The notes under the pieces were generated by a model. It searched no databases, was not told the origin of the DNA, and saw only the letters and a program-made list of their open reading frames with translations. From contig NZ_PXUP01000010.1 in the NCBI RefSeq assembly GCF_003324185.1, forward strand, positions 1-64,000: 64,000 nt of DNA. Reading direction: 5' to 3'. Shown here in pieces: positions 1,418 to 63,957 of this stretch; within the stretch, counting starts at the first letter, position 1, and every line of letters starts with the position of its first letter. Position numbers and translations under genes: made by a program. Source of the DNA: Faecalibacterium prausnitzii (GTDB lineage Bacteria > Bacillota > Clostridia > Oscillospirales > Ruminococcaceae).

Positions 1418-2887
1418 ATGCCGAGCAATAAAGTCCGCACCCGTTTTGCACCCTCGCCCACGGGTTATATGCACGTTGGCAACCTGCGTACCGCCCTGTA
1501 CACCTACCTGATGGCCAAGCACGAGGATGGCACCTTCATCCTGCGCATCGAGGACACCGATCAGGGCCGCTATGTGGAGGGCGCTGTGGATGTCATCTAC
1601 AATACCCTGCGGGAGACCGGCCTTCTGTGGGACGAGGGCCCGGATATCGGCGGCCCCGTGGGCCCCTATGTGCAGAGCGAGCGCATGGGCATGTTCAAGC
1701 AGTACGCCGAGCAGCTGGTGGCAGAGGGCAAGGCCTATTACTGCTTCTGCACCGAGGAGCGTCTGGAAGCCCTGCACGCCGAGCAGCGCGCTGCCGGTGA
1801 GATGACCCACTACGACGGCTGCTGCCGCGAGCTGCCCAAGGAGGAAGTGGAAAAGCGCCTTGCCGCAGGCGAGCCTTACGTCATCCGCCAGAAGATCCCC
1901 CGCGAGGGCGTGACCGGCTTTGACGATGTGGTGTACGGCCACATCGAGGTGAACAACAGCGAGATGGACGACCAGATCCTCATCAAGACCGATGGGATGC
2001 CCACCTACAACTTTGCCAACGTGGTGGACGACCACCTGATGGGCATTACCCACGTCATCCGCGGCAGCGAGTATCTGTCCTCCACCCCCAAGTATAACCT
2101 GCTGTATCAGGCCTTTGGCTGGGACATCCCCACCTATATCCACTGCCCGCCGGTGATGAAGGACGCCCAGAACAAGCTGTCCAAGCGCAACGGCGATGCA
2201 AGCTATCAGGATCTGGTAGCAAAGGGCTACCTGACCGAGGCAGTGCTGAACTATATCTGCCTGCTGGGCTGGAGCCCCCGCGGCGAGTACGCCGAGCAGG
2301 AGATCTTCTCCCTGCCGGAGCTGGTCAAGATCTGGTCCCCGGAGGGCATCTCCAAGTCCCCCGCCATCTTCGACCCCCTCAAGCTGCGCGCCATCAATGC
2401 GGAGTATATCCGCCGCCTCAGCCCCGAGGAATTCCAGAAAAAGGCCGAGCCGTGGATCGACAGCGCCGTGCACAGCGCCATCGACAAAAAGCTGCTGTGC
2501 GCAAACCTGCAGCCCCGGTGCGAGGTGCTGGGCGAGATCCCCGAGCAGCTGGATTTCTTTGACGCCATGCCGGAGTACGACGTGAGCCTGTACGCCAACA
2601 AAAAGCAAAAGACCACCCCGGAGACTGCAAAAGAAGCACTGGAAGCCCTGCTGCCGGTGCTGAGCGACGAGGCGCTGGATTTTGCAAACCGCGATGCCGT
2701 GTTTGATGCCTGCAAGGCAAAGGCAGAGGAGCTGGGCAAAAAGAACGGCTGGCTGCTCTACCCGCTGGGCATTGCCCTGTCCGGCAAGCAGCGCACCCCC
2801 GGCGGCGGCACCGACCTTGCCTGCATGATGGGCCGCGAAAAGACCCTGCAGCGCGTGCAGGATGCCATTGCAAAGCTGAACGGTTAA
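1418..2887 (+). CDS. gltX: Glutamyl-tRNA synthetase
   Basis: 489-residue class I aminoacyl-tRNA synthetase that charges tRNA-Glu (and possibly tRNA-Gln, as in most Firmicutes) with glutamate in the cytosol. The catalytic Rossmann fold opens with RFAPSPTGYMHVGNLRTA, which holds the HIGH-type motif, and continues with RIEDTDQ. The KMSKS-type loop is KLSKRNG near residue 250. The C-terminal anticodon-binding helical domain runs to the end. The ATG at 1418 is chosen because AAAGGAG (1402-1408) sits in front of it; upstream in-frame ATGs lack a ribosome site. Length is normal for the family. Monocistronic, with its own promoter. Confidence 0.97.
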   Translation: MPSNKVRTRFAPSPTGYMHVGNLRTALYTYLMAKHEDGTFILRIEDTDQGRYVEGAVDVIYNTLRETGLLWDEGPDIGGPVGPYVQSERMGMFKQYAEQLVAEGKAYYCFCTEERLEALHAEQRAAGEMTHYDGCCRELPKEEVEKRLAAGEPYVIRQKIPREGVTGFDDVVYGHIEVNNSEMDDQILIKTDGMPTYNFANVVDDHLMGITHVIRGSEYLSSTPKYNLLYQAFGWDIPTYIHCPPVMKDAQNKLSKRNGDASYQDLVAKGYLTEAVLNYICLLGWSPRGEYAEQEIFSLPELVKIWSPEGISKSPAIFDPLKLRAINAEYIRRLSPEEFQKKAEPWIDSAVHSAIDKKLLCANLQPRCEVLGEIPEQLDFFDAMPEYDVSLYANKKQKTTPETAKEALEALLPVLSDEALDFANRDAVFDACKAKAEELGKKNGWLLYPLGIALSGKQRTPGGGTDLACMMGREKTLQRVQDAIAKLNG

Positions 2888-2922
2888 GTGATATAAGTAC
2901 AGTGATCTGGGAGGTGGAACCT

Positions 2923-3195
2923 ATGATGTACCCGTTTATGACATTGGACGACGATACCGAAATCGTGCATTCCGAGATGAAGCCCGATGGCCGGGTGAAG
3001 GTGTACCTTGAAAAACCGGATGCAGAAGATTGTTTCCACTCAGCAGTGTGCTGGCTGCCGGGCTATGACTGGCAGGAGGTGCACGGTTTCACGCCGGAGG
3101 AGATCGCGCGGTATCAGAAAATCGTGGAGTCCACCGCGCATCTGATCTTGCAGTTCTCCCAAGAAGGAGGCGTGGAAAATGCCGCAGGTTTTTAA
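2923..3195 (+). CDS. Small hypothetical protein paired with DUF4160
   Basis: 90 residues, acidic, no membrane segment. Visible features are an N-terminal TEIVHSE-type strand, a KVYLEKPD strand, CWLPGYDWQEVHGFTPEEI and a C-terminal helix. GGAGGTGG at 2909-2916 selects the ATG at 2923. Its end overlaps the next gene by 17 bp, so the pair is translationally coupled. The layout, a small acidic protein followed by a small DUF4160 protein, resembles the DUF2442/DUF4160 pairs often suspected of being toxin-antitoxin-like. I do not recognise this protein's own family. Confidence 0.75.
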   Translation: MMYPFMTLDDDTEIVHSEMKPDGRVKVYLEKPDAEDCFHSAVCWLPGYDWQEVHGFTPEEIARYQKIVESTAHLILQFSQEGGVENAAGF

Positions 3196-11120: not shown

Positions 11121-11141
11121 GAATCCCCTTCTCGTAAAAAT

Positions 11142-11245
11142 GTGTTCATCGCGGCCCGCAGGCCGCGATGAACACTCAAATTTAAAAAAATCATTCCGCT
11201 GCGCATGGCCAGAGCAACGCGGAGGCCATTTGAAATCGTTGTTCT
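11142..11245 (+). repeat. Repeat R1, copy 1
   Basis: A perfect 15-bp hairpin (11142-11156 with 11161-11175, loop CGCA) followed by the conserved R1 tail. In the tail TCCGC (11195-11199) can pair with GCGGA (11219-11223), and ATGGCC (11205-11210) with GGCCAT (11224-11229). Tail ends TTGAAATCGTT. The other copies are at 23170-23290 (reverse), 55021-55135, 57556-57682 and 63838-63957. Confidence 0.7.
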
Positions 11246-14014: not shown

Positions 14015-15805
14015 ATGCCGAAAACTAAGACCAACGACCCCGGGGCGCACCACGCAAGCAGCGGTGCGCTGATCCGGCGTTTTCTGCCGTATCTGGCAAA
14101 CTATAAGATGGTGCTGTGCCTTGACCTGTTCTGCGCAGCACTGACCACCCTGTGCGATATCGTGCTGCCCAAGATCATGAGCACCATCACCAACTCCGCC
14201 ATGGGGGTGGGCATCACCCTGACGGCGGGCATCGTGCTGAAGCTGGCGGCGCTCTACTTTGTGCTGCGCATTATCGACGGCGCAGCCAGCTACTATATGT
14301 CCAGCATCGGTCATATCATGGGCGTGCATATTGAAACGGATATGCGCCGCGATGCCTTTGACCATCTTTTGCAGCTGGATCACACCTACTACAACAACAC
14401 CAAGGTGGGCACCATCATGGGGCGCATCACCAACGATTTGTTTGATGTGACCGAGTTCGCCCACCACTGCCCGGAGGAGTTTTTCATCGCGGGCATCAAG
14501 ATCGTGGCGTCCTTTGTCATCCTGTGCCGCGCCAGCATCCCGCTGACCTTGGCAGTGTTTGCCTGTGTGCCGCTGATGGGTGTGGTGTCGGTGTACCTGA
14601 ACGGACGTCTGCGGGCACGCTTCCGCCAGCAGCGCGTCCAGATCGGCGAGCTGAACTCCACCATCGAGGACAGTCTGCTGGGACAGGGCGTGGTCAAGGC
14701 CTTTGCCGCCGAGGACGAGGAGCGGGAAAAGTTCGCCAAGGGCAACCGCGCCTTTGAGCAGATCAAGACCCTTGGCTACTACGCCATGGGCGCCTTCAAC
14801 ACCTCCACCCGCCTGTTTGACGGGTTGATGTATCTGGTGGTCATTCTGGCGGGCGGGCTGTCGCTGGTGTACGGCAAGATCACCGCCGGCGACCTTGTGG
14901 CCTATATGCTCTACGTCACCACCCTCATCGCCACCATCCGGCGCATCGTGGAGTTTGCCGAGCAGTTCCAGCGCGGCATGACCGGCATCGAGCGCTTTGC
15001 CGAGATCATGGACACCCCGGTGGCCATCAAGGACGCCCCGGACGCCGTGCCATTGCAGCCCGGCCCCGGCGAGATCCGATTCGAGAAGGTATGCTTTGAG
15101 TACCCGGACGACCACAACAAGGTGCTGCACGACGTCAGCTTGGACATCCGCGCCGGAGAGCGTCTGGCGCTGGTGGGTGCCTCCGGCGGCGGCAAGACCA
15201 CCCTGTGCAACCTGATCCCCCGCTTTTACGAGGTGACCAGCGGCCGCATCCTCATTGACGGACAGGATATCCGCCGGGTCACCCTGAAGAGCCTGCGGCA
15301 GGATATCGGCATCGTGCAGCAGGACGTGTACCTGTTCAGTGGCACGGTGGCGCAGAACATCGCCTACGGCAAGCCCGGCGCCACCCGGCAGGAGATCGAA
15401 GCCGCCGCCCGGCTGGCGGGCGCGGAAAAGTTCATCCTTGCGCTGAAGGACGGCTACGACACCTATGTGGGCGAGCGCGGCGTCAAGCTGTCCGGCGGAC
15501 AGAAGCAGCGCATCGCCATTGCCCGGGTATTCCTGAAGAACCCGCCCATCCTGATTCTGGACGAAGCCACCAGCGCACTGGACAACGAGAGCGAGATCCT
15601 TGTGGGACAGAGCCTTGAAAAGCTGGCTCATGGCCGCACCACCCTGACCATCGCCCACCGTCTGACCACCATCAAGGACTACGACCGTATCCTTGTGCTG
15701 GGCGAGGAGGGCATCGTGGAAGAGGGTACCCATGCCCAGCTGCTGGAAAAGCAGGGCGTCTACTACCGCCTGTGGAACCAGCTGCCCGCAGAGGATGGGG
15801 AGTAA
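14015..15805 (+). CDS. ABC exporter, fused permease and ATPase (multidrug/lipid type)
   Basis: 596 residues. A six-helix type 1 exporter membrane domain (about 25-330) is followed by a nucleotide-binding domain with Walker A GASGGGKTT, Q-loop QQDVYLFSG, signature LSGGQKQRIAIAR, Walker B ILILDEATSALD and H-loop IAHRLTTI. It works as a dimer; no second half-transporter gene is beside it, so a homodimer is likely. ACGGAGG precedes ATG 14015. The last codons and the terminator of this gene are duplicated at 16925-17009. Substrate cannot be told from sequence. Confidence 0.94.
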   Translation: MPKTKTNDPGAHHASSGALIRRFLPYLANYKMVLCLDLFCAALTTLCDIVLPKIMSTITNSAMGVGITLTAGIVLKLAALYFVLRIIDGAASYYMSSIGHIMGVHIETDMRRDAFDHLLQLDHTYYNNTKVGTIMGRITNDLFDVTEFAHHCPEEFFIAGIKIVASFVILCRASIPLTLAVFACVPLMGVVSVYLNGRLRARFRQQRVQIGELNSTIEDSLLGQGVVKAFAAEDEEREKFAKGNRAFEQIKTLGYYAMGAFNTSTRLFDGLMYLVVILAGGLSLVYGKITAGDLVAYMLYVTTLIATIRRIVEFAEQFQRGMTGIERFAEIMDTPVAIKDAPDAVPLQPGPGEIRFEKVCFEYPDDHNKVLHDVSLDIRAGERLALVGASGGGKTTLCNLIPRFYEVTSGRILIDGQDIRRVTLKSLRQDIGIVQQDVYLFSGTVAQNIAYGKPGATRQEIEAAARLAGAEKFILALKDGYDTYVGERGVKLSGGQKQRIAIARVFLKNPPILILDEATSALDNESEILVGQSLEKLAHGRTTLTIAHRLTTIKDYDRILVLGEEGIVEEGTHAQLLEKQGVYYRLWNQLPAEDGE

Positions 15806-15819
15806 AAGCGCCTGAAATA

Positions 15820-15850
15820 CAAAAAAGACACCCGAAAGGGTGTCTTTTTG
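15820..15850 (+). terminator. Intrinsic terminator, bidirectional, after the ABC exporter gene
   Basis: AAAAAAGACACCC-GAAA-GGGTGTCTTTTT: a 7-bp stem with a stable GAAA loop, T-run on the plus strand and A-run giving T on the minus strand. It also ends the converging patatin-like gene. Confidence 0.9.
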
Positions 15851-16924: not shown

Positions 16925-17009
16925 CCGCCTGTGGAACCAGCTGCCCGCAGAGGATGGGGAATAAAAGCCCTTGAAATACAAAAAAGACACCCGAAAGGGT
17001 GTCTTTTTT
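16925..17009 (+). repeat. Duplicate of the 3' end and terminator of the ABC exporter gene
   Basis: About 84 bp match 15766-15849 with only three or four differences (stop region GGGGAGTAA becomes GGGGAATAA; GCGCCT becomes GCCCTT). The copy carries the last codons of the exporter gene (LWNQLPAEDGE) and the GACACCC/GGGTGTC terminator. No other part of the gene is here, so it is a short segmental duplication. Confidence 0.9.
16979..17009 (-). terminator. Bidirectional terminator ending the tRNA transcript
   Basis: Same hairpin as at 15820-15850, GACACCC-GAAA-GGGTGTC, with A-run and T-run on opposite sides. On the minus strand it starts 5 bases after the tRNA 3' end, so the duplicated exporter terminator is serving the tRNA. 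Confidence 0.85.
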
Positions 17010-21678: not shown

Positions 21679-23169
21679 TTGGAAAACGAAAAAAAGACCG
21701 GCGATAAATATTCCAAGCTTGCCGGCAATACTTTGATCTTTGCAATCTCCAGCTTTTCGTCCAAGCTGCTTACCCTGATCGTACAGCCCTTTCTGACCTA
21801 CGCCATGGCGGAGATCTCGGATCTGGGTCTGTCCAAGATCCTGAGCCAGTACGCCAACCTGCTCATCCCCTTTGTGTCCATGGGCATGTCCAACGCCATC
21901 ATCCGCTTTGGTCTGGACAAGGGCAACAGCGAAAAACAGGTGTTCACCAATGGCCTGCTCACCATTCTGGGCGGCTTTGGCATTCTGGTGTTGTGCTGGC
22001 CGGTCACCCAGTTTTTGCCGGATATGGCGCAGTACGGCCTGCTGATCTACATTTATGTGCTCATGAGCTGTCTGCGCACCCTGTGCACCCAGTTCGTGCG
22101 CAGCCGCCAGTGGAATAAGCTGGTGGCGGTGGACGGCGTGCTGTGCACCGTGGCGACCATGGCGTTTTATGTGCTGTATCTGGTGGGCTTCAAGTGGGGC
22201 GCCAATGGCTACCTGCTGGCCATTATCAGCGGTGACCTGACCAGCGTGCTGTTCTTGCTGTTCACCGGCAAGCTGTGGAACTATGTGGAGCTGAAGGGCA
22301 TCAACAAAAAGCTGTGGCGGCAGATGCTCAACTTCTCGCTGCCCATGATCCCGGCACAGATCAGCTTCTGGATCATCAATGCTTCTGACCTGTTCTTTGT
22401 GCGCGAAATGTGCGAAGGGTTGGACGGACGCACCGGCAACGCATGGAGCGGTCTGCTTTCCACCGGCTACTTCCTGCCCACCATCCTGACCACGCTGGGT
22501 CTGATCTTCTACGATGCGTGGCAGCTTTCCGCCGTCACCGAGGAGGAGGAGCGCGCCCGGTTCTTTACCAAGATCTTCCGCACCTATTCCAGCGTGCTGT
22601 TCTGCTGTGCGGCGGGCATTATCTGGCTGTGCCGCCCGGTGATGCACGTCATGAAGTCCAACTATTACTACGCATGGCACTTTGTGCCCTTCCTCGTGCT
22701 GGCTTCCACCTGCAGCTGCTTTAACCAGTTCATGAACAGCGTGTACGTTGTGACCAAAAAGTCGCAGCGCAGCATGGTCACCATGATGGCGGGTGCCATC
22801 AGCAACTGCATCATGAACTATTTCTTCATCAAGCTGTGGGGGCCCGTGGGCGCGACCTATGCGTCCTTCCTTGGCCTTGCGCTGGTGTTCACCCTGCGTG
22901 CGGTGGACGCCCGCCGCATGATCGGGATGCGCGTCCACCCGGCGCGGGTGCTGGCAAATGCCGCTGTGCTGGTGTTTGAGGCCTTTGTGCTGTTGGCAGA
23001 GCCGCCGCTGTACGGACTGTGGACAGGGCTGATCACGCTGGTTATCATCCTGTACAACTTTGCGGGCGTATGGGCCATGGCGCGTGTGCTGCTGCCCCGC
23101 CTGCTGGGCCGCCGGGGCAAGGCGCTGGTAGCCGCCGTGGACGGCTGGCTGAAGCCGAAAAAGGCGTAA
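21679..23169 (+). CDS. Polysaccharide/oligosaccharide flippase (MOP superfamily, Wzx-like)
   Basis: 496 residues with 12-14 membrane helices. The N-terminal KYSKLAGNTLIFAISSFSSKLLTLIVQPFLTYAM and the rest of the helix pattern match lipid-linked oligosaccharide exporters of the PST family. It probably flips a glycan precursor, but no glycan cluster is adjacent. The start is TTG at 21679, with CGGAGGG at 21664-21670; no better start is available. The copy of repeat R1 that follows (reverse orientation) may stand in for a terminator. Confidence 0.9.
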   Translation: MENEKKTGDKYSKLAGNTLIFAISSFSSKLLTLIVQPFLTYAMAEISDLGLSKILSQYANLLIPFVSMGMSNAIIRFGLDKGNSEKQVFTNGLLTILGGFGILVLCWPVTQFLPDMAQYGLLIYIYVLMSCLRTLCTQFVRSRQWNKLVAVDGVLCTVATMAFYVLYLVGFKWGANGYLLAIISGDLTSVLFLLFTGKLWNYVELKGINKKLWRQMLNFSLPMIPAQISFWIINASDLFFVREMCEGLDGRTGNAWSGLLSTGYFLPTILTTLGLIFYDAWQLSAVTEEEERARFFTKIFRTYSSVLFCCAAGIIWLCRPVMHVMKSNYYYAWHFVPFLVLASTCSCFNQFMNSVYVVTKKSQRSMVTMMAGAISNCIMNYFFIKLWGPVGATYASFLGLALVFTLRAVDARRMIGMRVHPARVLANAAVLVFEAFVLLAEPPLYGLWTGLITLVIILYNFAGVWAMARVLLPRLLGRRGKALVAAVDGWLKPKKA

Positions 23170-23290
23170 AGCGGGACGATTTGGAATGCGCTCCGCATTT
23201 GCTTTGCGCATATTCAGCGGAAAAATTATTTATAAGTTCGGAATACCGGAGCGTCTGCGGACGCTCCGGTATTCCATTTTCACGGGGAAG
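23170..23290 (-). repeat. Repeat R1, copy 2 (reverse orientation)
   Basis: On the minus strand: GGAATACCGGAGCGT pairs perfectly (15 bp, 23240-23254 with 23261-23275), then the conserved AT-rich spacer and tail with TCCGC/GCGGA and ATGCGC/GCGCAT, ending in AAATCGTCCCGC. It fills the gap after the flippase gene. Confidence 0.8.
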
Positions 23291-23356
23291 GAAATAAAGG
23301 TGAGTAATATATTTTTACAATTTATGGAATATGCTCAAGTTTTTTCCTTCTGCGGA

Positions 23357-28617: not shown

Positions 28618-30372
28618 ATGGCACTGGATGCCGCGACACTGGCGCTGACGGCAGCGGAGCTGAAAGCCACCCTGACCGATGCCAAGATCGCAAAAATTTT
28701 TGAACCGACCCGGGATGAGCTGGTCATCACCCTGCGCACCCGCACCGATACCTATGCGCTGCTGCTGTCTGCCCGCAGCGGCTCTGCCCGGGTGTGCCTG
28801 ACCGAGGAGACCTTTGAAAACCCCGAGACGCCGCCCTCTTTCTGTATGCTCATGCGCAAGCACCTGACCGGCGGCAGACTGCTGGATGTGCACATGGAGC
28901 CGGGCGACCGCATCGTCTACTTTGATTTTCAGTGCACCAACGAGATGGGCGACCTTGTGCGCAATACCCTGTGCGCTGAGCTGATGGGGCGCTACTCCAA
29001 CCTTGTGCTGGTGCAGAGCGGCAAAATTATCGACGCCCTCAAGCGGGTGGATTTTGAGGACAGTGACGTCCGGCAGCTGCTGCCGGGCTTGCCCTACACC
29101 ACGCCCCCCAAGCCCGCCCGCCCGGATTTTCTGCTGGTGAGCAGCGCATCCATCGTGGCAGCGGCCTGTCAGCGGGAGCTGCCGGTGGCGGATGCTTTGA
29201 ACAAAACGGTGGCCGGCGTAGGGCCGGTGGTCTGCCGGGAGGCCGCATGGCGCGCCTTTGACGGCGAGCACCTGCCCGCCAACGAGCTGACTGATGCCCA
29301 GAAACGCAGCCTGATGGCGGCAATCGACGAGCTGAAGGAACTGCACGCGCAGGGCGGCTGTCCGTGCAGCGTCACTGCGCCGGACGGCAAGCCGGTGGAG
29401 TATACCTTCTTCCGTCCGCAGCAGTATGGCGAGCAGTACACCATCCGGGAGTGGCCGTCCTTCAACGCGATGCTGGAGGGCTACTACGCCGAGAAGGACC
29501 GCGCTGAGCGGCTGCGCACCAAGAGCAAGGAGCTGCACAAGGCGGTGCACAATATGTACGACCGCGCTCTGCGCAAGCAGGCAGCACGACAGGAAGAGCT
29601 TGCTGCCAGCGGCAAAAGCGAAAAGCTGCGCCTGTACGGTGAGCTGCTGTCTGCCAACCTCTATCTGGCGCAAAAGGGCATGAAGAGCCTGACCGTGCCC
29701 AACTGGTACGACGAGGGCAAAGAGGTGATCATTCCGCTGGATCTGCGGTTTAGCCCCAGCCAAAACGCGCAGAACTTCTTTAAGAACTACAAAAAGAAGC
29801 AGACCGCCGCCCGGATGCTGGTGGACCTGCTGGCCGAGGGCGAAAAAGAGATCGCCTATTTGGAAACGGTGCTCTACGAGGTGGAAAGCGCCTCCGGCGA
29901 AGCCGCGCTGAACGAGATCCGCATGGAGCTGAAAAATCAGGGCTACCTGAAATACTACAAGCAGCGGGACAAAAAGCAGAAGCCTGCGGACTTTTTGCGC
30001 TATACTTCCAGCGACGGCTTTGAGATCCTGGTAGGCCGCAACAACGCCCAGAACGACAAGCTCACCCTGCACACCGCCCGGGGCAAGGATTTATGGTTCC
30101 ATGTGCAGAAAGCACCCGGCAGCCATGTTGTGGTCATGAGCCGGGGCGAGGACATCCCGGACACCACCAAGCAGGAGGCGGCGGAGTTGGCGGTCATCCA
30201 TTCCAGCGCCTACAAGGCGGGCACCGGCGCCAAGGTGGCGGTGGACACCACTGAGGTGAAGAACATCTGGAAAGCCAGCGGTGCCAAGCCCGGCATGGTG
30301 CTGTACGAGGTGTACACCACCGTCTACATCACCCCGCGGGAAGGGTTGGAGGAACAGCTGAAGAAGAAATGA
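28618..30372 (+). CDS. rqcH: NFACT family ribosome quality-control protein
   Basis: 584 residues. NFACT-N domain at the start (MALDAATLALTAAELKATLTDAKIAKIF, then LLLSARSGSARVCLT), helix-hairpin-helix and coiled-coil middle (about 290-440, with ERLRTKSKELHKAVHNMYDRA) and NFACT-R domain near 455-560 (GFEILVGRNNAQNDKLT, KDLWFHVQKAPGSHVVV). Bacterial members bind obstructed 50S subunits and add C-terminal alanine tails to stalled chains; older annotations call them fibronectin-binding proteins. GAGG before ATG 28618. Length typical for the family. Confidence 0.94.
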   Translation: MALDAATLALTAAELKATLTDAKIAKIFEPTRDELVITLRTRTDTYALLLSARSGSARVCLTEETFENPETPPSFCMLMRKHLTGGRLLDVHMEPGDRIVYFDFQCTNEMGDLVRNTLCAELMGRYSNLVLVQSGKIIDALKRVDFEDSDVRQLLPGLPYTTPPKPARPDFLLVSSASIVAAACQRELPVADALNKTVAGVGPVVCREAAWRAFDGEHLPANELTDAQKRSLMAAIDELKELHAQGGCPCSVTAPDGKPVEYTFFRPQQYGEQYTIREWPSFNAMLEGYYAEKDRAERLRTKSKELHKAVHNMYDRALRKQAARQEELAASGKSEKLRLYGELLSANLYLAQKGMKSLTVPNWYDEGKEVIIPLDLRFSPSQNAQNFFKNYKKKQTAARMLVDLLAEGEKEIAYLETVLYEVESASGEAALNEIRMELKNQGYLKYYKQRDKKQKPADFLRYTSSDGFEILVGRNNAQNDKLTLHTARGKDLWFHVQKAPGSHVVVMSRGEDIPDTTKQEAAELAVIHSSAYKAGTGAKVAVDTTEVKNIWKASGAKPGMVLYEVYTTVYITPREGLEEQLKKK

Positions 30373-30396
30373 TTTGAACTGCGCATCTTCATAGGT

Positions 30397-30592: not shown

Positions 30593-30944
30593 CGGCTGCA
30601 AAAGGCTTGTGCGATACAAGTCGTGCAGGCCAGCGATATGCGTTGATGCGGGAGGTTGTCATCCGGCGATAGCTGCGATGGGTTATTTCCGCGGAGTATG
30701 TCCGATCTTAGAACCGGGCGAAAAAATTACTGACAGCGATGGAATACGTTCCCTCGGCAGAGAAGTTACTCCTCTGCGAAACGGGCGGAACCAATGTTCG
30801 GATTTGATTTGCTAATATGTTTCCGGGAGAACTGCCATGCGGTTCACCGGTTTTTATAGTGCCAAATCGAGGAACACCCGGAACTGTGTAGAGCAATTTA
30901 TCGGCTCGCCTAGGGCAAAAACAATTTTTCAGGAGGCGTAAGCA
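30593..30944 (+). promoter_or_regulatory. Structured S10-operon leader with attenuator-like hairpin
   Basis: About 350 nt without an open gene. Hairpins include CTTGT/ACAAG near 30605-30620, GCAGAG/CTCTGC near 30759-30778 and, strongest, CCGG-GAAC/GTTC-CCGG at 30823-30850 followed by five T (30851-30855). That last one looks like a premature intrinsic terminator about 90 nt before rpsJ. In E. coli this leader is controlled by L4 through attenuation; whether L4 acts here is inference. AGGAGG at 30931-30936 serves rpsJ. Confidence 0.6.
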
Positions 30945-46923: not shown

Positions 46924-46967
46924 GAGAAACCATTGCACAGCTTTTGTGCAGTGGTTTCTTTTTTTGT
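46924..46967 (+). terminator. Terminator of the ribosomal supercluster
   Basis: GAAACCATTGCACA pairs with TGTGCAGTGGTTTC over a short loop, then seven T. Strong intrinsic terminator. Confidence 0.92.
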
Positions 46968-46975
46968 GGTTTACC

Positions 46976-47110
46976 TCCTCAGTCGCTGCGCGCCAGCTCC
47001 CCCAAGGGGGCGCCTTTCGGTGCTGCCGCAAAGTTTCCCGCCACCGCGAAAAGCCGTCCCCTTGGGGAAGGTGGCTGCGAACGCAGTAAGCAGACGGAAG
47101 GGGTGACTTC
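46976..47110. repeat. Repeat R2-like element (mosaic)
   Basis: Begins CTCCTCAGTCGCTGCGCG, as in R2 at 54890 and 57462, then CAGCTCCCCCAAGGGGGCGC. The right half differs (CCGTCCCCTTGGGGAAGGTGGCTGCG), so it is a hybrid or diverged copy. Fills the gap after the supercluster terminator. Confidence 0.7.
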
Positions 47111-48523: not shown

Positions 48524-49228
48524 ATGGTACGAGTGCTTGTTGTAGAAGATGAAGCTAATATCCGCGATATGATCGCCCTGAACCTGCGCCATGCGGGGAT
48601 GGAGGTGGTGGAGGCCGAAAGCGCCGAAGCCGCCCTGCCGCTGCTGGCACAGAAACCCGGCTGTGATGCCGCCATTCTGGACGTGATGCTGCCGGGCATG
48701 AACGGGTTCTCGCTGTGCGAGACCATCCGCCGCACCGACCAGCAGATCGGCATCATCATCCTCAGCGCCAAGGGGCAGGAGCAGGATAAGATCCGCGGTT
48801 TGTCCATCGGCGCAGACGATTACATGACCAAGCCTTTCAGCGTCAGCGAGCTGCTGGCGCGTGTGGAGGCGCTGTGCCGCCGGGTGATCCGCACCAAGGA
48901 GGAGGACAGCAACGGGAACACCCCACTGGGCACGTTGACCAGCGGTGAGTTTGTGCTGGACGAGAACCGCCGCGTTCTGCTGAAGGCCGGTCAGCCCATT
49001 GAGCTGACACAGGTGGAGTTCCAGATCATGGAGCTGTTCTTCCGCAACCCGGGCACTGCGCTGGTGCGCGAAAAGATCCTGAAAGGGGTCTGGGGCGAGA
49101 ACTACTTCGGCGATGTAAAGATCGTGGATGTGAACATCCGCCGCCTGCGCATGAAGGTGGAGGACGAGCCCAGCCACCCCGCCCACATCATGACCGTGTG
49201 GGGCTATGGCTACCGGTGGGAAGAATAA
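48524..49228 (+). CDS. OmpR/PhoB-family response regulator
   Basis: 234 residues. Receiver: acidic EDE at 8-10, Asp53 in ILDVMLPGMNG, ILSAKGQ (Ser in place of Thr) and TKPFSVSELLARVEAL. Winged-helix DNA-binding domain about 140-232: ELTQVEFQIMELFFRNPGTALVREKIL, VDVNIRRLRMKVED, WGYGYRW. Pairs with the histidine kinase 89 bp downstream; a perfect 18-bp hairpin lies between. Confidence 0.94.
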   Translation: MVRVLVVEDEANIRDMIALNLRHAGMEVVEAESAEAALPLLAQKPGCDAAILDVMLPGMNGFSLCETIRRTDQQIGIIILSAKGQEQDKIRGLSIGADDYMTKPFSVSELLARVEALCRRVIRTKEEDSNGNTPLGTLTSGEFVLDENRRVLLKAGQPIELTQVEFQIMELFFRNPGTALVREKILKGVWGENYFGDVKIVDVNIRRLRMKVEDEPSHPAHIMTVWGYGYRWEE

Positions 49229-49231
49229 AAA

Positions 49232-49270
49232 TGTGATTCAGGAAAGTCCTACGGACTTTCCTGAATCACA
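49232..49270 (+). repeat. Perfect 18-bp hairpin between response regulator and kinase genes
   Basis: TGTGATTCAGGAAAGTCC (49232-49249) pairs exactly with 49253-49270 around the loop TAC. It is followed by AAAAAATATCTTTTT, so termination would be inefficient. The stem-and-loop style resembles the variable hairpin of repeat R1, but the conserved R1 tail is missing. Confidence 0.75.
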
Positions 49271-49317
49271 AAAAATATCTTTTTATTATCGATACTCACC
49301 GAAAGGAGGACACTGTT

Positions 49318-50742
49318 ATGCGAAGCGGTATCACCCGCCGCTGGCTGCGGGGCAACCTGCTCATCACCGTACTGGTGGTGCTGCTGGCCGAGGCAATGTT
49401 TTTGTACAGCTATACCCGCAGCTACTACGGCAGTGTGCAGCAGATCATGTACCGGCGGTTCTCCTCGGTGACCGGTCAGCTGAAAATGTATACCGGCGAT
49501 ACCGCCCAGAGCGCGGCTGCCAGCCGCAGTCTGGCGCTGCGGCGCATGGTGGAACAGTTTGCCGATAAGGACAAATACGAGTTCATGCTGCTGGACAGCT
49601 ACGGCGGCGTGATCGCCTCCTCCAGCGGTACGGATGCGGAAGGCATCGTCAGCAGTAAGGACTTTGAGCAGGCGCTCAACGGCCCGGACGGTCTGGGCGT
49701 GGCGGTGTACCGCACCCAGTCTGGCGAGATAGTCATGGCGGCCTGCTCGCTGGTGCCCTACGACGCCGAGGACGTGGCCGCGCTGCGGCTGGTCACCAGT
49801 CTGGCGCTGGTGGAGCGGCAGGTCAAAAACGCCATCATTATCAGTGTGTTCCTTGCGGTGGCGATCTTGCTGTTTACGATCATGTCCGGGCTGTACTTCG
49901 TGCGGGGCATCGTGGTGCCGCTGGGGCAGGTGGAGCGCACCGCCGCCGGCATCGCCCGGGGCGAGCTGGACGTGCGTCTGCCCCTGACCGGCGACCCTCA
50001 CGACGAGGTGGACCGGCTGCGCGGCACCATCAATCAGATGGCCGAGGGACTGGAAGAGACCGAGAAGATGAAGAACGAGTTCATCAGCTCGGTGTCCCAC
50101 GAGCTGCGCACCCCGCTTACCTCCATCCGGGGCTGGGTGGAGACCTTGATGACCCTAGACGACCCCACCGACGAGAACTACCGCAAAGGACTGGAGATCA
50201 TCAACAACGAGACCGGGCGGCTGAACAATATGGTGGAGGAGCTGCTGGATTTCAGCCGCCTGCAGAACGGACGCATCCGCATGGAGTGCCGTCCGCTGGA
50301 CTTGGTGGCAGAGTTGACCGATGCGGTGCTCTTCTGCGAGGCGCGCATCCGGCAGGAGGGGCTGCTGCTCCACTACGCCGAGCCGGAGGAGATGATCCCT
50401 GTCTACGCCGACCCGGACCGTCTGCGGCAGGTGTTCATCAATATTCTGGATAACGCCATCAAATACTCTGCCCCCGGCGGGCGCATCACGGTCAAACTGT
50501 GGGCAGGGGAGTACAAGGCCTTTGTGGAGATCATCGATCAGGGACGCGGCATCCCGCCGGAGGATCTGGAAAACGTAAAGACTAAGTTCTACAAGGGCAG
50601 CAACTCGGTGCGCGGCAGCGGCATCGGTCTGGCGCTGGTGGATTCCATCATGACCGCGCTGGACGGCACGCTGGATATCAAGAGCACCCTCGGGCGCGGC
50701 ACCGTGGTCACCTTGGGTCTGCCGCTGTACCATAAGGCGTGA
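49318..50742 (+). CDS. Sensor histidine kinase (PhoR/WalK-like)
   Basis: 474 residues. Membrane helix 1 about 13-32, an outside sensor domain with a PAS/CACHE-like middle (KYEFMLLDSYGGVIASSSGTDAEG), membrane helix 2 about 178-200, HAMP (VVPLGQVERTAAGIARGELDVRLP), HisKA with SSVSHELRTPLTSIRGWVETL and a HATPase with NILDNAIKYSAPGG, DQGRGIPPEDL and GSGIGLALVDSI. AAAGGAGGA precedes ATG 49318. It should phosphorylate the regulator encoded upstream. Confidence 0.94.
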   Translation: MRSGITRRWLRGNLLITVLVVLLAEAMFLYSYTRSYYGSVQQIMYRRFSSVTGQLKMYTGDTAQSAAASRSLALRRMVEQFADKDKYEFMLLDSYGGVIASSSGTDAEGIVSSKDFEQALNGPDGLGVAVYRTQSGEIVMAACSLVPYDAEDVAALRLVTSLALVERQVKNAIIISVFLAVAILLFTIMSGLYFVRGIVVPLGQVERTAAGIARGELDVRLPLTGDPHDEVDRLRGTINQMAEGLEETEKMKNEFISSVSHELRTPLTSIRGWVETLMTLDDPTDENYRKGLEIINNETGRLNNMVEELLDFSRLQNGRIRMECRPLDLVAELTDAVLFCEARIRQEGLLLHYAEPEEMIPVYADPDRLRQVFINILDNAIKYSAPGGRITVKLWAGEYKAFVEIIDQGRGIPPEDLENVKTKFYKGSNSVRGSGIGLALVDSIMTALDGTLDIKSTLGRGTVVTLGLPLYHKA

Positions 50743-54630: not shown

Positions 54631-54664
54631 GGAAAAGTGCATTGCGCTCCGCGGGGTGACTTTT

Positions 54665-54888
54665 TGCTTGTTTTCAGCGTGCAAAGACGCTCCGCTGGGC
54701 CAGAGGTAGGGAGGGGTGTTCCGATTCCCCCCTCCCTACCTCTGGACTCCACCCACCCCGCAACGGGTCAAGGGCTGCACGCCCTTGACGATCCTAAAGA
54801 AGTGGGCTACACCGGAAAAAACTGAAGATTCACGCCTGTTCGGCGTGAAGATCTTTTAACCGTTTTTTCCGGCTCCGCCGATTTAAAG
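54665..54888 (+). repeat. Repeat R3, copy 1
   Basis: Matches 57245-57460 over most of its length. Contains AGCGTGCAAAGACGCT, a long hairpin of 17 bp (CCAGAGGTAGGGAGGGG with its complement), GTCAAGGGC/GCCCTTGAC and a nested stem with AAAAAAC/GTTTTTT. In the last stem the bases differ from the other copy but pairing is kept. Confidence 0.85.
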
Positions 54889-54889
54889 C

Positions 54890-55008
54890 CCCTCAGTCGC
54901 TGCGCGACAGCTCCCCCCGGGGGAGCGGGCACGCCCGGAAACTTTCCCGCCATGCCAAAGGCTCCCTCCCAGAGGGAGCTGTCAAAACCGACAGGTTTTG
55001 ACTGAGGG
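54890..55008. repeat. Repeat R2, full palindromic copy
   Basis: Ends are inverted: CCCTCAGTC (54890-54898) and GACTGAGGG (55000-55008). Inside, GACAGCTCCC and GGGAGCTGTC pair. MITE-like in form but with no visible target-site duplication. Confidence 0.85.
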
Positions 55009-55020
55009 AGTTCGTTCTAA

Positions 55021-55135
55021 ACCCCTCCTGTGAAAATAGCGTTTGGAGCGCTCCGCAGAGCGCGACAAACGCGAAATTATAAATAATTCTTCCGCTGATG
55101 ATGCGCAAAGCGAACGCGGAGCGCATTTTAAATCC
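55021..55135 (+). repeat. Repeat R1, copy 3
   Basis: Head CCTCCTGTGAAAA, imperfect copy-specific hairpin (GCGTTTG..AGCGCT with AGCGC..CAAACGC), AT-rich spacer, then tail TCCGC/GCGGA and ATGCGC/GCGCAT. Ends about 55 bp before rimO. Confidence 0.85.
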
Positions 55136-55190
55136 TTAAATCGTCAAAATCAAAAGCATCCCTCAAAAGAGAAAGAGAGTATCATCCCTT

Positions 55191-57186: not shown

Positions 57187-57244
57187 TTTGTAAGGAGAAA
57201 ATGCAGCGGAAAATTCATCTGCAACGCCGCTGGGGGAAAGCTTC

Positions 57245-57460
57245 TGCTTGCTTTCAGCGTGCAAGGACGCTCCGCTGGGCCAGAGGCAGGGAGGGGTGTT
57301 CCGACTCCCCCCTCCCTACCTCTGGACTCCACCCACCCCGCAACGGGCCAAGGGCTGCACGCCCTTGACAATCCTAAAGAAGAAGTCGAAGCACAAAAAA
57401 GCTAGCGCTGCGCCAGTCGGCGCTATCGCTTTAACGCTTTTTTCGCTTCTCCATTTATAG
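57245..57460 (+). repeat. Repeat R3, copy 2
   Basis: Second copy of the element at 54665-54888. Conserved left part to CCTAAAGAAG; the right nested hairpin has a different sequence (GAAGC..AAAAAAGC..TAGCGC with GCGCTA..GCTTTTTTC..GCTTC) but the same shape. Confidence 0.85.
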
Positions 57461-57461
57461 C

Positions 57462-57547
57462 CCCTCAGTCGCTGCGCGACAGCTCCCCCCGGGGGAGCGG
57501 GCACGCCCGCCGCGCCGCGCTTTCGCAGAAAGCGGCGCGGCAGCTGC
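57462..57547. repeat. Repeat R2, left part only
   Basis: CCCTCAGTCGCTGCGCGACAG to GAGCGGGCACGCCCG matches R2 at 54890, then switches to a GCCGCGCCGC/GCGGCGCGGC hairpin. The right inverted end is missing. Confidence 0.75.
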
Positions 57548-57555
57548 CGTTTTCC

Positions 57556-57682
57556 TCTACGCCCACTTCCGTGAAAATGCAATGCCGGAGCGTCCGCAGA
57601 CGCTCCGGCATTGCTCTATTAAAAATAATTTTTCCGCTATTTATGCGCAGAGCAAAGCGGAGCGCATTGAAATCGTTCACGC
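57556..57682 (+). repeat. Repeat R1, copy 4
   Basis: Perfect 15-bp hairpin (57579-57593 with 57600-57614, loop CCGCAG), AT-rich spacer and tail TCCGCT/AGCGGA, ATGCGC/GCGCAT, ending GAAATCGTTC just before the 3' end of the minus-strand foldase gene. Confidence 0.85.
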
Positions 57683-63751: not shown

Positions 63752-63837
63752 CTTTGACCTGTTGAGAGCCAAGAAGCAACCCCGCAGTGCGGATGTTTCC
63801 GCAGGAAACAGGCACTGCAAATGCCGTTTCCCTCTAC

Positions 63838-63957
63838 GACCCCTCCTGTGAAAAAGCAATTTCGAAACGCCCGCAGGCGTTTCGAAATTGTAAATCAAAA
63901 TAATTCTTCCGCTGAAAATGGCTAGAGCGTAGCGGAGGCCATTCAAAATCATCCCGC
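63838..63957 (+). repeat. Repeat R1, copy 5
   Basis: Head CCCCTCCTGTGAAAA, perfect 15-bp hairpin (CAATTTCGAAACGCC, loop CGCA, and its complement), spacer TCAAAATAATTC, tail TCCGCT/AGCGGA and ATGGCT/GGCCAT. It occupies most of 63752-64000, where no gene is seen. Confidence 0.85.

Follow-up and report, generated by a model that had tools for sequence, protein, structure and literature searches.

The BIMEs of enterobacteria are mosaic intergenic clusters composed of palindromic units and linker modules. The REPINs are described in the available part of Bertels and Rainey (2011, PMC3116915) as extragenic palindromic units in inverted doublets, with single copies thought to be remnants and with both excision and diversity. 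The GTAG- and CGTC-tagged REPs lie near the 3' ends of ORFs, in convergent and unidirectional gaps, and form heterodimers with different stems; the CGTC REPs have no dedicated transposase, and most have stems of 8-9 bp and loops of 4-5 nt (Di Nocera 2013, PMC3733652, in the sections at hand). The main text of that study mentions neither Faecalibacterium nor Firmicutes. In the Bacillus cereus group, the bcr1-bcr18 repeats are described, in the available part of PMC3446304, as group-specific and intergenic, some with conserved structure and some MITE-like and located in UTRs.

R1 is an interspersed repeat with five copies in the 64,000-nt stretch of Faecalibacterium prausnitzii DNA analysed here (the window). 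Like the REPINs as presented in PMC3116915, R1 is a high-copy extragenic palindromic unit that forms inverted doublets, but its unit combines a long hairpin with a second structured tail, and its doublets are tails-out with modular spacers. It shares with the tagged REPs, in the portion of PMC3733652 consulted, the position near gene 3' ends, the location in convergent and unidirectional gaps and the heterodimers of unlike stems, and with the CGTC REPs the lack of a dedicated transposase. The right end of R1 contains AAATCGT(C), but its stem b of 6 bp, its loop of 13-14 nt and a tag 7 bases away from the stem differ from the CGTC REPs. After stem b, the bases C, G, T and C occupy positions 8-11 in 150, 144, 168 and 103 of 191 copies, respectively, and are not stem-adjacent. 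Compared with a REP unit of 20-40 bp with a GTAG tag, R1 measures about 120 bp, and no GTAG stands at the stem foot of its consensus. Both R1 and the BIMEs, likened by description, are mosaic, and the hairpin and tail of R1 differ separately between orthologous sites. R1 is also group-specific, intergenic and structured, as are bcr1-bcr18 when compared by description, while its head-to-head doublets and cassette exchange are features without mention in the available part of PMC3446304.

R1 works like a REP or BIME, yet it does not fit the size, GTAG-tag and stem-loop definitions set for REPINs and CGTC REPs and is not assigned to any named family. It appears to be a new kin of the known bacterial palindromic repeats, with a more elaborate build. 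The reading we consider probable is that R1, a non-coding repeat interspersed in high copy number in Faecalibacterium, is built and behaves like an orphan REP/BIME (REPIN-like) element. A literature search, which reached few of the subscription papers, returned no account of such repeats in Faecalibacterium.

Copy number, range and anatomy of R1

All five copies in the window were confirmed by a covariance model, with E-values of 5.4e-23 to 2.1e-29 (Table 1), a recovery that is partly by construction, as the model was built from source-genome copies including these five. Since the five copies were in its training set, a strict tail pattern provided the independent check, with 30 exact matches in the source genome and 0 when read backwards. 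The first-pass annotation had described a five-copy element, a number that proved far too small. In 661,793 contiguous bases of the source genome there are 43 R1 matches, 24 of them full length by our own tally from the listed model positions, which scales to roughly 110 full-length copies per genome. The covariance model built from 28 source copies gave at least 113 matches in this genome, partial matches included.

The same annotation had proposed a covariance-model search of related genomes, which revealed a large family restricted to some Faecalibacterium genomes. In the genus scan, in which at most the best 116 candidates were scored per genome and partial matches were counted, R1 was abundant in 8 of 31 Faecalibacterium genomes, with at least 77 to at least 116 matches each; another four had 1-3 matches, and 19 had none. 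When the strict pattern was run against 84,980 species, each represented by a single genome, 91 stretches were retrieved, the best 80 of which all belong to Faecalibacterium (strains I4-3-84, I4-1-79, APC923/51-1 and CNCM I 4541). It matched 5 of 41 genomes comprising the source and its relatives, all within Faecalibacterium. Among 197 genomes of the order, searched with stricter filters and with 18 candidates scored for the genomes listed, the model matched the source genome alone. R1 was thus not found outside Faecalibacterium in the collections searched. The gathering score of no Rfam family was reached at the R1 copies of the window, and three sub-threshold matches occurred in three loci. 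R1 is a real and large repeat family restricted to one lineage; its paired variation is unusually strong, and its cassettes show signs of exchange.

For the family-wide analysis, nhmmer matches that start at or before model position 20 and reach position 112 were collected, duplicates were removed (307 reduced to 204), and the 204 copies were aligned by sequence profile alone. This set is enriched for copies fetched by the strict pattern, and a contiguous-stretch sample of 34 copies is given alongside it; alignment A2 excludes L019 and L030, which carry an insert in the hairpin loop.

The left part of R1 consists of optional left-hand modules of several kinds, followed by the conserved CCCCTCCCGTGAAAAT and then by a hairpin with a 4-nt loop, which is CGCA in 191 of 204 copies. 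The right part comprises an A/T-rich spacer, TCCGCT, four variable bases, ATGSSY, the loop ARAGCnnn(n)GCGGA, RSSCAT and TNNAAATCGT, and the tail ends at CATTNNAAATCGT. The 194 parsed copies have 127 distinct hairpin 5' arms, in a first count that set aside 10 of the 204 copies as weak; a second count included them, and in it the inner 14 hairpin pairs were perfect in 167 of 204. Among the 37 copies with an imperfect inner hairpin, 23 have an A-G together with a G-A mismatch. In the window the hairpins are indeed perfect in four of the five copies, the one at 55021 having a tandem G-A/A-G mismatch, but the earlier statement that the hairpin sequence is different every time was overstated: the inner ten pairs are common to the copies at 23171 and 57562. 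TGCG-type loops on the sense strand occur in 2 of the 204 full copies. The G006 orthologue of the source 93.6k site has such a sense-strand TGCG loop, as if the hairpin centre were inverted. A coding function was rejected, as the length of the tail cassette does not preserve a frame: of 159 measured copies, 91 have a cassette of 35 nt and 66 one of 36 nt.

Table 1. Positions of R1 copies, of the parts of copy 5 and of related features (window coordinates unless a contig or locus is named).
Feature	Position	Strand	Remarks
R1 copy 1	11125..11244	+	tail ATGGCC/GGCCAT
R1 copy 2	23171..23292	-	tail ATGCGC/GCGCAT; tail end directly after ORF ending at 23169
R1 copy 3	55021..55141	+	tail ATGCGC/GCGCAT; hairpin with tandem G-A mismatch
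R1 copy 4	57562..57681	+	tail ATGCGC/GCGCAT
R1 copy 5 (focal copy)	63839..63957	+	tail ATGGCT/GGCCAT
Copy 5, small hairpin of optional left-hand module	63794..63810	+	TGTTTCCGCAGGAAACA
Copy 5, optional 5' module	63818..63843	+	AAATGCCGTTTNCCNTYACGACCCC; partly conserved; one among several left-hand modules
Copy 5, hairpin	63857..63890	+	15 bp; CGCA loop at 63872-63875; minus-strand reading continues with CTTTTTC
Copy 5, A/T-rich spacer	63891..63907	+	
Copy 5, conserved TCCGC motif	63908..63912	+	5' half of proposed first tail stem; pairing not kept family-wide
Copy 5, stem b 5' arm (ATGSSY)	63918..63923	+	
Copy 5, conserved GCGGA motif	63932..63936	+	within stem b loop
Copy 5, stem b 3' arm (RSSCAT)	63937..63942	+	
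Copy 5, right end	63943..63952	+	family consensus TNNAAATCGT; conservation drops beyond
Weak hairpin-only R1 relative	about 49216..49328	+	26.5 bits; orthologous place in G006 has a full R1
R3-bearing R1 copy, source	C13:18955-19176		
R3-bearing R1 copy, source	C13:283626-283855		
R3-bearing R1 copy, source	C35:226776-227007		
R3-bearing R1 copy, L028	near 2327-2560		
R3-bearing R1 copy, L053	near 2760-3064		
Split IS200-type element, half L256	G010:C1:2319 kb		
Split IS200-type element, half L257	G010:C1:2362 kb		

Paired variation and probable exchange between copies

The paired change of ATGSSY and RSSCAT noticed in the five window copies is genuine and family-wide: stem b is fully paired in 184 of 204 copies and occurs in ten versions. 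The 16 column pairs with the highest corrected mutual information across the 204 copies all lie in the hairpin or in stem b. Within the 28 source copies, stem b is paired in every one, with both-side changes at three of its six pairs, and the paired cells and covariation score of the whole structure were far above shuffled and slid controls; the measure of further pair types gave no excess over shuffles in these 28 copies (277 of 500).

The two stems initially drawn in the tail fared differently, since stem b covaries and stem a (TCCGC/GCGGA) does not. Stem a departs from pairing in 52 of the 204 copies and is compensated in just one of them, yet 45 of these 52 retain an intact stem b; of the 34 copies in the contiguous sample, 17 keep stem a paired and 27 keep stem b paired. 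The first-pass annotation had viewed the two stems as probable competitors in a switching tail, a claim that these counts do not support. An RNA switch in which TCCGC/GCGGA competes with ATGSSY/RSSCAT could appeal to the existence of both complementarities in an interleaved order, and to the good conservation of both motifs as sequence, but it is highly improbable given the unpaired departures, and given an insert of roughly 115 nt that separates the parts in five copies. The tail amounts to a hairpin formed by stem b, and conserved motifs lie within this hairpin and ahead of it. The TCCGC/GCGGA contact may form in many copies, yet it is not maintained as a pair.

The insert in question is R3, a hairpin-rich repeat of roughly 115 nt that lies within the stem b loop, at nearly the same place, in five R1 copies. 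In four of these copies the two stem b arms can be recognised and still pair, with a mismatch in one of them; the fifth copy lacks the 5' arm. In L019 and L030, whose stems differ, the CGCA hairpin loop holds inserts of about 93 nt that are much alike. As the inserts in the stem b loop and in the hairpin loop show, both R1 stems tolerate large loops. R3 also occurs inside another repeat, R2, in G023.

Wobble pairs showed no bias: G-T and A-C combinations numbered 7 and 7 in the inner hairpin pairs, and 4 and 8 in stem b. This lack of bias fits pairing that is kept at the DNA level, or one arm being copied from the other, the numbers being small.

We compared four genomes whose flanks are about 95-96% identical across most of the window region, and compiled nine orthologous site sets by hand, leaving out matches without a partner in another genome. 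In five of the nine sets (source 23k, 47k, 57k, 63k and 69k) the hairpin is the same and the tails differ, and in one (55k) stem b and its loop are the same and the hairpins differ. The tail differences span both stem arms and the loop together, and all but one of the five sites differ in the variable bases as well. At the focal site, the tail reads ATGGCT/GGCCAT in the source, ATGGCT/AGCCAT in G003, ATGCGC/GCGCAT in G006 and ATGGCC/GGCCAT in G023, where TCCGC is lost. The 93k site has a paired point-like change in one genome and an unpaired change in another. Across the family, 16 of 106 distinct tail cassettes are combined with several hairpin arms, and more than one tail type accompanies 12 of 76 hairpin arms.

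These sequence comparisons suggest that the tail differences, which look like block replacements by another R1 copy, stem from exchange between copies, although separate insertions into one and the same place would leave a similar picture. R1 copies seem to swap hairpin and tail modules with each other. As the tails differ as blocks while the hairpin stays the same, exchange between copies would explain much of the apparent compensation. The earlier argument that the paired change reflects selection on structure therefore holds in part: the paired change is real, but by itself it is no proof of such selection, because at orthologous sites the tails are exchanged as whole blocks. A more far-reaching account is that R1 forms a genome-wide pool of about a hundred intergenic sites with exchangeable hairpin and tail slots, whose near-perfect pairing would be kept by DNA-level arm-to-arm correction or by selection, with no resident transposase; we regard this as tentative and rather unlikely as a full description.

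Sites at which R1 is present in one genome and absent from another were also inspected. No clean R1 insertion with a target duplication was seen among the presence/absence sites listed, most of which look like deletions, remnants or replacements. When L142:4246-4362 is set against source C13:99176-99187, a composite R2-R1 insertion is flanked by a direct repeat of about 11 nt, the clearest duplication-like footprint among these sites. By the marks of a MITE, target-site duplication is thus represented by this one composite site and by no clean R1 case, and as for terminal inverted repeats, head-to-head pairs have tail ends on both sides and few of 30 source copies show a left tail end.

Other interspersed repeats in the window are an R2 core with the CTCCCTACCTCTGG palindrome (54653-54823 and 57233-57403) and CCCCTCAGTCGCTGCGCGACAGCTCCCCC (54881-54937, 57453-57509 and 46967-47023). 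Both often adjoin R1, resulting in mosaic intergenic regions.

Position relative to genes

With gene positions taken from our own crude ORF caller, R1 is held by 184 distinct intergenic regions, and in all 36 regions with more than one copy the copies lie head-to-head, tails out. Convergent gaps are favoured (61 of 184 R1 regions as compared to 73 of 360 background gaps; Fisher p 0.0015) and divergent gaps are avoided (18 of 184 as compared to 92 of 360; Fisher p 9e-6). Of 184 copies, 116 have the tail end turned towards a stop codon, at a median distance of 12 nt and within 25 nt in 80 of them; the number of copies in this stop-codon count equals the number of regions in the gap count by chance.

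This arrangement raises the question of whether R1 is a portable 3' UTR with an intrinsic terminator for the gene that ends in a stop codon touching the tail. Its transcript would then run through stem b, an A/U spacer and the long hairpin, to be followed by 4-6 U in a row. On the strand opposite to R1, the loop is UGCG or UACG, which we take to be UNCG-type, in 193 of 204 copies, the closing pair is C-G in 201 of 204, and an A-run of 4-6 beside the hairpin stem, read as a U-run after the stem on that strand, is present in 189 of 196 measured copies. Such a loop with an adjoining U-run could point to an RNA role. A pattern scan flagged the minus strand at 63890-63857, but this was one of three copies in the scanned range. 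The IS200-type element described below has six left flanks with a hairpin, as judged by eye, one of them directly after an R1 hairpin in the T-run, which is also consistent with a terminator. The hairpin and U-run stand on one strand, yet single copies between tandem genes are placed tail-to-stop in 44 cases and tail-to-start in 44, with no orientation preference, and this lack of bias speaks against a one-direction terminator role. Moreover, the folding energy predicted for that strand is not lower in 153 of 204 copies, and wobble pairs are not in excess. Taken together, we judge the terminator reading to be unlikely, and favour a REP/BIME-like element that often lies next to stop codons.

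Two further observations were made in the window. An S10-Clostridia ribosomal leader (Rfam RF03136) lies at 30635-30721, and upstream of it, at about 30366-30391, there is an R1 remnant at a place where three relatives have R1 copies. An 84-nt direct repeat (15766-15849 and 16925-17008, 96% identical) contains a terminator-like hairpin.

Search for a mobiliser and implications

The first-pass annotation had noted that no transposase is nearby and had suggested a check for a REP-associated transposase gene elsewhere in the genome. IS200-type genes do occur in the genome, and in relatives some stand beside R1, but their element ends are unlike those of R1. Matches to Y1 transposases were found in 11 of the 31 genus genomes, namely 6 of the 8 R1-rich genomes as compared to 5 of the 23 others (p 0.012), or 6 of 8 as compared to 4 of 14 among genomes at least 90% complete (p 0.074). 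R1-like matches lie near 4 of 12 Y1 loci in R1-rich genomes, one locus being flanked on both sides. Together with an anatomy and head-to-head doublets that resemble the REPINs, as far as PMC3116915 describes them in the part available, these associations would suit a REP whose mobiliser is a RAYT-like tyrosine transposase of the IS200/IS605 type.

Other findings point the other way. No Y1 match was obtained in two R1-rich genomes, the single-contig G006 (at least 116 R1 matches) and G045 (at least 93). One Y1 element type, of about 760 bp, has constant ends that are common to its copies and unlike R1, and in L034 and L254 R1 stands just outside these ends. In G010, the element is located inside an R1 copy, right after the hairpin in the T-run, its halves now being 43 kb apart. 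Since R1 lies outside the element ends, and since the element lies inside R1 in G010, R1 or a neighbouring hairpin is the target of this IS200-type element. The three Y1 proteins tested are of the IS200 type (157, 151 and 151 bits) and scored 32-33 bits against the REP-associated model, for which the cut-off is 80. No RAYT gene flanked by R1 was found, and the Y1 element type adjacent to R1 has non-R1 ends. With these ends unrelated to R1, and with G006 and G045 lacking Y1, the IS200-type transposase was rejected as the mobiliser, and mobilisation by a RAYT-like enzyme is quite improbable. The Y1 excess in R1-rich genomes could mean a past link, an ancestral role being possible.

Matches to TnpB-like proteins were obtained in 5 of the 31 genus genomes (none over the cut-off), to IS110 in 10 and to reverse transcriptases in 13; G006 has no match to any of them, and they were rejected as required partners. 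No mobilising gene for R1 was identified among the Y1, TnpB-like, IS110 and reverse-transcriptase searches. R1 as the ends of an autonomous transposon was also discarded: three tails-out pairs 2.6-2.8 kb apart, inspected out of six stretches fetched around more widely spaced R1 copies with their ORFs judged by eye, enclose ordinary-looking host genes, and two of these pairs seem to represent a single region in two genomes. As to a possible phage origin, two stretches fall in viral contigs, and the match in L217 adjoins what reads as a host gene. In that viral contig (L217:10559-12420), R1 stands between a serine-recombinase-like gene and the apparent host gene, at a possible prophage junction.

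The first-pass annotation had suggested a REP-type element whose shape is conserved while its sequence varies, and this gained support from the copy number, the covariation of the hairpin and stem b, and the head-to-head doublets. In the orphan REP/BIME-like element that we favour, the unit is a strong hairpin with a structured, sharp-ended tail, arranged head-to-head when paired and placed between genes, often just past a stop codon. An enzyme that acted on R1, and that today is either missing or unrecognised, would first have spread the family, and the present-day copies would persist and diversify mainly via recombination between copies. This recombination would move both arms of a stem together, and selection or arm-templated correction would keep them matched.

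The R1 family shapes the intergenic DNA of a common gut commensal, and it offers a clean case for how palindromic repeats stay near-perfectly paired and abundant with no evident transposase. It also carries a warning, in that covariation in multi-copy repeats can stem from exchange and is not by itself proof of RNA function.
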